From positions 1 to 64,000 of the forward strand of contig VFJJ01000017.1 of the NCBI GenBank assembly GCA_009886115.1: a stretch of 64,000 bases of DNA, given 5' to 3'. This document shows, one piece after another, positions 35,948 through 37,427 of the stretch. Within the stretch, counting starts at the first letter, position 1; every line of letters starts with the position of its first letter. The position numbers and the translations under genes were made by a program. The notes under the pieces are model-generated. The model ran no database searches, was not told the DNA's origin, and saw only the letters and a program-made list of their open reading frames with translations. This DNA comes from Actinomycetota bacterium. GTDB lineage: Bacteria; Actinomycetota; Acidimicrobiia; IMCC26256; VFJJ01.

Positions 35948-37294
35948 TCACCCGCCGGCCAGGAGGGCGGCCAGCTCCTTGGCCTCGGCCTCGGTGAAGG
36001 ACCCGCCGATGCTGACCTCACCACCCAGGATGGGCGAGGTGATCACGGGCGCGCTCAGCACCGATCCGTCGACGACGATGGCCAGCTGCTGGCCGATGTG
36101 CTCGGCGGTGTACGTGGCGAACATGGCCTGGTCGGCCTCGTTTAACTCGATGAGGATCTCCCAGCCGTTGTCGAATCCGTTGTCGTGGGCGACGGCACTC
36201 GAGAGATCGGGTTGATCGAGGACGCTCGCGCCGAGCACGAACCAGGTCGCGCCATCAGCAGCTGGCAGCAGGAGATACCCCGCGACCTCGTCGGGGCGCG
36301 CACCCTGGTCGGCGATCTGCTCGACCACGGGCCGGAGTTGGAACCCCGCATCCACAGTCGTGTCGATCGTCGATCCGGTTGAGGCCGGAATGGTGGGTAC
36401 GACGCCCGGCGCGACGCCCGACGGGGCGCCGTCGGTGGGGCTCACGAAGTTGCCCTGGAGCACGGCAGCAGCTCCGGGCGGAACATCCAGCGCGACGTCG
36501 TCAGGCACGAAGGCGATGGTGACGACGTCGTTGTCGTTGGGGACGTACGTCGCCAGATCCCCTTCCTGCTCGACGGGGCCCTGCGTGTAGTCCCCGAGCG
36601 CCGGGTCGTATCGGGCGACGGCCCAGCGGAGGGCTCCCTCGCGGCCACCAAGGTTGGGACAGGCGTCACCGTCGACGAACGTCGCGGCATCGACGGACGT
36701 CTCGCTGGGATCGTCGTCGGCGGGGCCCAACACCACGAGACCCGTTCCCGATACGGTGATCCGGTCGGGATCGAGCTCGTAGCGAAGGGTGGGTTCCTCG
36801 GACACCCCGACAGGCTGCTCGACGGGCGGGGGGTCGAGGAGATGCTCGACGGTCGCGTTCTCGAACGAGCCCGCCTCGGTGTACGGATGGATGTGGAACA
36901 AACCGTCGCCGTGGCTGTGGAGACCGACGGTGCTCTCGTACGCGGGAACGACCGGTTGCCAGATGCCGCAGAGGTTGACCCCGTAGGCAGCGTGCCAATG
37001 GTCCCCGTCCTCGAAGCTCGGACCGACCAGACCGGTGGGTGTGCCGTAGGTGACAGGGCTGTCGCTGCTGTCTTCGCTTGTGCTGTCGTCCCTGCTGCTG
37101 TCGTAGCTCGCGGCGATGCCGATGCCGATGGCGGTGCCGGCGACGACGATCGCGACGACCGCGCCGATGAGGATCCGTTGCCTGACGGGCCGACGAGGCA
37201 GTCCGGGTCGGGCATCCGGCGGGAACGGGTCGAATCCCGAATCGGCCGGTCCCGCCGGCGGAGGCGGTTCCGGCACCAGGCCCTCATCGTCCAC
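35948..37294 (-). CDS. Membrane-anchored protein with SecD P1-head domain
   Basis: Encodes 448 residues. A Pro-rich cytosolic N-terminus (1-38) precedes one transmembrane helix (about 40-62, ILIGAVVAIVVAGTAIGIGI). An outer part with His clusters follows (HWHAAYGVNLCG and HSHGDGLFHIHPY, about 100-145). The final approximately 130 residues match the periplasmic P1 head of the SecD translocase subunit: TWFVLGASVLDQPDL, LAIVVDGSVLSAPVI, and GGSFTEAEAKELAALLAGG. The six-helix SecD membrane domain is missing. It therefore cannot be a normal SecD; a stand-alone extracytoplasmic binding or chaperone-like role is possible. The His clusters suggest metal binding. Function unknown. Confidence 0.8.
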   Translation of the reverse strand: MDDEGLVPEPPPPAGPADSGFDPFPPDARPGLPRRPVRQRILIGAVVAIVVAGTAIGIGIAASYDSSRDDSTSEDSSDSPVTYGTPTGLVGPSFEDGDHWHAAYGVNLCGIWQPVVPAYESTVGLHSHGDGLFHIHPYTEAGSFENATVEHLLDPPPVEQPVGVSEEPTLRYELDPDRITVSGTGLVVLGPADDDPSETSVDAATFVDGDACPNLGGREGALRWAVARYDPALGDYTQGPVEQEGDLATYVPNDNDVVTIAFVPDDVALDVPPGAAAVLQGNFVSPTDGAPSGVAPGVVPTIPASTGSTIDTTVDAGFQLRPVVEQIADQGARPDEVAGYLLLPAADGATWFVLGASVLDQPDLSSAVAHDNGFDNGWEILIELNEADQAMFATYTAEHIGQQLAIVVDGSVLSAPVITSPILGGEVSIGGSFTEAEAKELAALLAGG

Positions 37295-37427
37295 GACGCT
37301 CCTTCACTGGGAACCGTGTATCTGCTCACGCGGCGGCTTCGCCGACCCGGACTGCGCTGCGATGTGGGGAGAGTCTCGCATGGCAGGGAGCTGGGCCGTG
37401 ACCGGGTCGAGTCGCACGTGCGGGGGG

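Follow-up and report, generated by a model that had tools for sequence, protein, structure and literature searches.

In SecD, a proton-driven motor, the P1 head has been described as the part that grips, and the gene at positions 35948 to 37294 of the window (the whole stretch of 64,000 nucleotides analysed here) raises the question of what such a head could do on a protein without that motor. The head domain as such is known; new are its occurrence outside the motor and its repeated joining to an outer domain not described before. In the open-access literature of PMC, outside which most subscription papers lie, we found neither stand-alone SecD heads nor the family of this outer domain described.

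An intact gene for a protein with a single membrane anchor

The open reading frame on the reverse strand encodes 448 amino acids between a GTG start and a TGA stop, with exact coordinates and an intact gene, and its codon-position GC content of 0.72/0.50/0.84 is similar to that of the four neighbouring genes compared. It is flanked by a luciferase-like gene (PF00296) and a DUF222 gene (PF02720), both on the same strand, and the draft assembly of the source genome has 224 contigs and 3% contamination. The features are as follows, with their basis in brackets.

37299..37304, reverse strand: AAGGAG, likely ribosome-binding site, 4 bases 5' of the start codon (sequence)
35948..37294, reverse strand: whole gene, comprising transmembrane anchor, HWH/Cys outer domain, linker and SecD P1 head (open reading frame)
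37109..37177, reverse strand: N-terminal transmembrane segment, residues ~40-62, after RRPVRQR (sequence)
36443..37012, reverse strand: HWH/Cys outer domain, residues 95-284, a conserved family (alignments, model)
36992..37000, reverse strand: HWH motif, residues 99-101 (alignment)
36968..36970, reverse strand: invariant Cys109 (alignment)
36884..36919, reverse strand: HSHGDGLFHIHP motif, residues 126-137, with H126, H128, D130, G131, H134 and P137 invariant in 64 rows (alignment)
36659..36661, reverse strand: invariant Cys212 (alignment)
36347..36442, reverse strand: Pro/Ser/Thr-rich linker, residues 285-316, of low model confidence (sequence, model)
35951..36346, reverse strand: SecD P1 head including the leading strand FQLRPV, residues 317-448 (Pfam, NCBIfam, hhalign, structure)
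35951-36253, reverse strand: PF22599 SecDF_P1_head match, residues 348-448 (Pfam)

The AlphaFold2 model is highly confident in the outer domain and moderately so in the head. Its sole long hydrophobic helix, at residues 37-67, takes in the hydrophobic stretch at residues ~40-62, so that the single N-terminal transmembrane helix read from the sequence by the initial annotation holds. Ahead of it lies a short, Pro-rich N-terminus of ~39 residues which, by the positive-inside rule, would be inside the cell, with the remainder of the protein outside.

The C-terminus is a SecD P1 head without its motor

The C-terminus of the window protein matches the SecD P1 head (PF22599; 3aqo, 3aqp, 5xap) by sequence, by profile and by predicted fold. 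PF22599 matches with an E-value of 9.6e-22 and 77.5 bits against a cut-off of 27, and hhalign aligned the head with a profile of 15 SecD heads from the same order at a probability of 98.9; 12 of the 14 testable SecD-invariant residues are retained. Structurally, VIA-align placed residues 336-447 onto the SecDF P1 head of 5xap (Z 9.2, rmsd 3.2, 106 aligned), and in a Foldseek search with the whole model the best matches were SecDF (3aqo, probability 1.00) with an E-value of 5.8e-3, none reaching E ≤ 0.001. The membrane-anchored, detached P1 head of SecD that was proposed from the letters alone is thus borne out, and profile searches that might have assigned the C-terminal domain to a different family all gave SecD (Pfam, NCBIfam and hhalign).

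The SecD model of NCBIfam, TIGR01129, covers only its positions 88-223 of 397 and scores 61.8 bits against a cut-off of 244.4; since this match is partial and far under the cut-off, the window protein is not a SecD protein. It stops at the head and lacks the multi-helix membrane domain that would follow, as had also been noted at first sight. In comparison to SecDF, the P1 base is missing as well, and a single transmembrane anchor and another outer domain are present instead. Elsewhere, the source genome encodes a SecD of its own, whose frame of 746 amino acids includes base, head and membrane part; the window gene thus comes on top of it. With this SecD present, and with the head forming the end of a different conserved protein, a truncated secD was ruled out. 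Likewise ruled out was a recent copy of the local SecD head, to which identity is 33% and outside whose group the head of the window protein stands in a (poorly resolved) head tree.

The outer domain is a conserved family with invariant histidines and cysteines

The initial annotation had described a His-rich outer region. The histidines are indeed there, but they belong to a conserved domain of its own rather than to a His-rich decoration. Throughout the family, the HWH and HSHGDGLIHIHP motifs are near-invariant and two cysteines are invariant. In 64 aligned domains, namely that of the window and those of 63 of the 80 named loci introduced below (17 partial, ambiguous or near-duplicate loci were left out), C109, G124, H126, H128, D130, G131, H134, P137 and C212 are invariant, and H99, W100, H101 and H136 are conserved at ≥90%. 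C109 and C212 are the sole cysteines of the window protein and likely form a disulfide. Six of its nine histidines (99, 101, 126, 128, 134 and 136) fall inside residues 99-136, a cluster with a probability of ~1e-4 at an assumed rate of 2%; a chance cluster was ruled out by the conservation across the family. The metal-dependent role that the initial annotation proposed is a possibility.

Residues 95-284 gave no Pfam match at E-values up to 10, and among 26 family members scanned no Pfam or NCBIfam model was common to more than two. The best non-SecD model was the collagen repeat, in two members (E 2.3e-4), and SecD models were matched by the window protein alone. Sequence relatives of the outer domain in the PDB were not convincing, the best rows being SecDF on the head and the others having E ≥ 0.07.

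Modelled alone, the outer domain reached a pLDDT of 85.9 and a pTM of 0.84. In the VIA search, from whose lists the absence of a fold excludes nothing, all six rows with Z ≥ 5 were the transcobalamin beta-domain and the next row stood at 3.2. The six alignments (2v3n and 5no0) have Z of 5.5-6.4, 97-100 aligned residues and an rmsd of 3.2-4.2, and in 5no0 97 of 105 residues are aligned. At the level of sequence the two differ, with 9-12% identity, no Pfam match and the His motifs on the side of the outer domain. The predicted fold is hence likely transcobalamin-beta-like; it is likely rather than proven because Foldseek, run with the outer domain alone, returned nothing significant and because Z stays below 8. 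What is shared would be the fold only, and there is no reason to expect cobalamin binding.

Distribution, plain relatives and origin of the window gene

A scan of genome contigs with the single window protein found no relative, and a profile scan of genome contigs found 116, of which the best 80 were kept as named loci. As matches of the profile scan were confirmed with the window protein, loci with heads may be slightly favoured among them. By record titles, the best 80 of 116 are mostly from Actinomycetota, many of them Acidimicrobiia, with few others, e.g., SAR202 and Dehalococcoidia, in line with the early guess of a lineage-specific family.

Narrower searches covered 61 genomes (its own, 57 of the same order and 3 of the same class), the genome sets searched containing no genome of the window's own taxonomic family. 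The whole window protein was matched in 54 of the 61 and the HWH/HSHGDG stretch, as a count of rows, in 44; most other matches were SecD. Across the phylum, 18 of 198 genomes matched the family profile, 15 on the outer domain and 3 only on other parts. A profile of the fusion was matched in 119 of 296 genomes of the class; among the matches listed for these, both halves lie in one frame only in the window's genome. The form with transmembrane segment, outer domain and head was likewise confined to the window's genome among the rows of the 61 genomes.

The widespread form is head-less. These plain HWH/HSHGDG membrane proteins, mostly of 200-350 amino acids, consist of one transmembrane helix, the same outer domain as in the window protein and a low-complexity tail where the latter has its head, and they hold a conserved position in a glycan operon. 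The conserved H, C, D, G and P positions of the plain family and its Cys pair are all present in the window protein. Open reading frames were clustered in 84 stretches (the best 80 of 116 loci and 4 stretches of the own genome), and the functions of the clusters were named by eye from the sequences rather than by family search. Around the plain gene, NAD-epimerase-like genes were found in 67 of the 84 stretches, a nucleotidyltransferase-like gene in 61, and three glycosyltransferase-like clusters (5, 6 and 7) in 37, 35 and 33, respectively; a cofD-like gene occurs in 50 stretches and a cofE-like gene in 47. No sec gene stood out by eye in the neighbourhoods of plain genes. At three loci (L055, L073 and L108) the plain gene lies, by eye, between cofE-like and cofD-like genes without an adjoining nucleotidyltransferase cluster.

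The source genome keeps such a plain copy in its glycan operon (contig C48, L156), with 62% identity to the window protein over residues 81-201. The window gene itself lies outside the glycan operon and not beside cofD- or cofE-like genes. In a tree of outer domains made by a quick method from 81 rows (the rows of alignment A7, 15 relatives and 2 paralogues of the own genome), the window gene groups with the C48 copy as its sister (99*); the structure alignments A6 and A7 took in 69 and 63 of the 80 loci. Because the two copies are sisters and the window gene is located elsewhere, it is most simply a relocated paralogue that was derived from the plain form and gained a head. Distribution and gene order suggest that the head-less form is probably ancestral.

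The pairing with a SecD head recurs, rarely

Five of the best 80 of 116 loci carry, by eye, a SecD-head-like domain (L057, L060, L063, L067 and L089), a proportion that is not an unbiased rate because the window protein was used for confirmation. In the first four, which are lipoproteins by eye and have a neighbourhood of their own, the head follows the outer domain; in L089 it precedes it. Within the family of genome G478, a full-length lipoprotein with outer domain and head was found in all six genomes searched, four of them known beforehand to hold the fusion and two new, and five of the six have a plain paralogue too.

As a group profile, the four lipoproteins L057, L060, L063 and L067 match SecD heads with a probability of 95.6 (E 1.2e-8). 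Individually, only L057 among six lipoprotein fusions scanned has a Pfam head over the cut-off; L067 (E 0.15) and the fusion of genome G482 (E 0.037) gave matches below it, and the Pfam scan gave no head match in L060, L063 and the fusion of genome G483, nor in the reverse-order L089. The latter stems from one MAG, whose genome also has a plain paralogue. It lacks the HWH motif. Its N-terminal head matches the profile of orphan heads with a probability of 89.8 and that of SecD with only 16, so a pairing in reverse order appears less certain here.

Three changes of the head label are needed on the tree of outer domains, and starred branches force at least two of them. Probably three changes, and at least two, have therefore taken place, and this tree argues against a single gain of the head; the head tree is compatible with a common origin.

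Other partners and orphan heads

A further paralogue of the own genome (contig C103, L157:10056-11384) has a diverged or degenerate HWH outer domain, recognised with a probability of 98.7, and ends in a cyclophilin domain (PF00160, E 3.2e-35), a fusion that no other genome shows in the rows listed for the 58 of the order. In one genome of the lipoprotein family (G480, contig C71, L212/L224), another HWH-family protein ends in a weak, degenerate YkuD-like tail (E 0.19). The tail reads TLGE at the motif region, where active enzymes have SHGC. Since one paralogue has this weak tail, the partners of the outer domain are maybe not export factors only.

Heads also occur apart from the outer domain. 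Of 58 genomes of the order, 53 have a PF22599 match, as do 278 of 296 of the class, about 20 of the latter with more than one. Of eleven suspected orphan heads, nine were not SecD; the other two, L152 and L155, were rejected as really being SecD. Two single-transmembrane proteins with an outer SecD head (L145:2613-3758, reverse strand, and L146:2820-3851, forward strand) are encoded directly downstream of ECF sigma factors and are candidate anti-sigma factors that would sense through the head. Five small proteins (L147 to L151), lipoproteins by eye, contain little beyond the head. L146, L150, L153 and L154 fall under the Pfam cut-off as single proteins. As orphan heads occur without the outer domain, the SecD head is a reusable outer module in this group.

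Some of these frames have peculiarities of their own. L151 seemingly has a P1-base-like part too, without membrane helices, and L153:2368-3828 (reverse strand) and L154:2486-3949 (forward strand), secreted by eye, combine a weak head match with a following peptidase-like motif, HEMLHAAY (also by eye). A 98-residue frame of genome G044 (contig C179) contains a stop.

Possible role of the window protein

Our leading interpretation, which we put forward tentatively, is that the window protein, anchored in the membrane but without a motor, holds newly exported polypeptides or passes them on. It would act on the outer side of the cytoplasmic membrane, in the export or folding of proteins, and its head may, like that of SecD, still bind unfolded chains as they emerge from the Sec channel. 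Lacking the proton-driven membrane part, the head could not pull and would rather be a passive holdase or hand chains on. With a C109-C212 disulfide probably holding it together, and possibly a bound metal, the outer domain could place the head at its site. Such a protein would have arisen from a plain, head-less envelope protein that was duplicated and then, probably, gained the head. A role in folding is plausible in view of the repeated pairing with SecD heads and of the cyclophilin-fused paralogue in the same genome.

The SecD P1 head is reported to bind translocon-engaged substrate and to crosslink to the chaperone PpiD (PMC7793623), and PpiD and YfgM each have one transmembrane segment and a periplasmic domain and both promote translocation (PMC9643414). 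With one N-terminal transmembrane segment and an outer domain, the window protein is built like these two E. coli proteins, and its mode could be somewhat like theirs at the translocon. PpiD is in contact with the SecD head. The likeness of the window protein to it is one of analogy only, and no sequence relation is claimed.

It is possible, but on balance unlikely, that the head is instead a reused binding module of an outer sensor for peptides, unfolded proteins or another ligand and gives no help in export. The orphan heads L145 and L146 beside ECF sigma factors and the plain lipoproteins L147-L151 would fit such a use, but the window protein has no recognised cytoplasmic domain, and neither of the two genes adjoining its own is a sigma factor.

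Rather unlikely is also a protein whose function is set by the outer domain, in surface-glycan assembly or envelope structure, with the head as an added docking or ligand site. This would suit the plain gene, which lies among glycosyltransferase-, epimerase- and nucleotidyltransferase-like genes and beside cofD/cofE-like genes (clusters in 33-67 of 84 stretches), and a YkuD-like fusion, albeit weak, exists as well. The window gene, however, stands outside the glycan operon. Most of the SecD-invariant residues are still present in its head, the pairing has more than one origin, and a further copy is fused to a cyclophilin.

A carrier or store of metal (Cu or Zn), in which the histidines bind the metal and the head is incidental, appears improbable. 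H126, H128 and H134 are invariant and H99, H101 and H136 conserved at ≥90% in the 64 rows, as such a function would have it, but invariant histidines can be structural, the reverse-order fusion L089 has no HWH, and no main neighbour cluster looked metal-transport-like by eye. An accidental fusion or functionless, decaying duplicate is scarcely credible: the neighbours are unrelated and, in the rows of the 61 genomes, no second one has the anchored form with a head, but the frame is intact with coding bias, conserved residues are kept in both domains and the pairing recurs elsewhere.

Extended from the single protein to the group, the motor-less holding factor would be part of a lineage-specific, motor-free apparatus of Acidimicrobiia for handling newly exported proteins, an extension that we regard as doubtful. 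Its outer scaffold, repeatedly fused to a SecD P1 head or a cyclophilin, would be disulfide-held, possibly metal-bound and transcobalamin-beta-like, and would come as transmembrane proteins or lipoproteins. If true, the family would connect an undescribed domain, facing outwards and widespread in Acidimicrobiia, with the export or folding of proteins, and proteins like the one described here would let the SecD head be studied as a module. Should the head also work alone on other anchors, gripping would be separable from pulling.

Further observations

Viral scans with SecD heads and the outer family as queries gave no matches. Among plasmids, 23 records matched, of which four were SecD or SecDF when translated and five more are annotated as secD. 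Two loci (L041 and L065) are titled as Bifidobacterium breve MAGs and yet carry the HWH gene together with the operon; these titles look mislabelled. One further HWH-family member (L021:1024-2067) has an extra stretch between the transmembrane segment and the outer domain, which by eye resembles a hammerhead of the biotinyl/lipoyl type.
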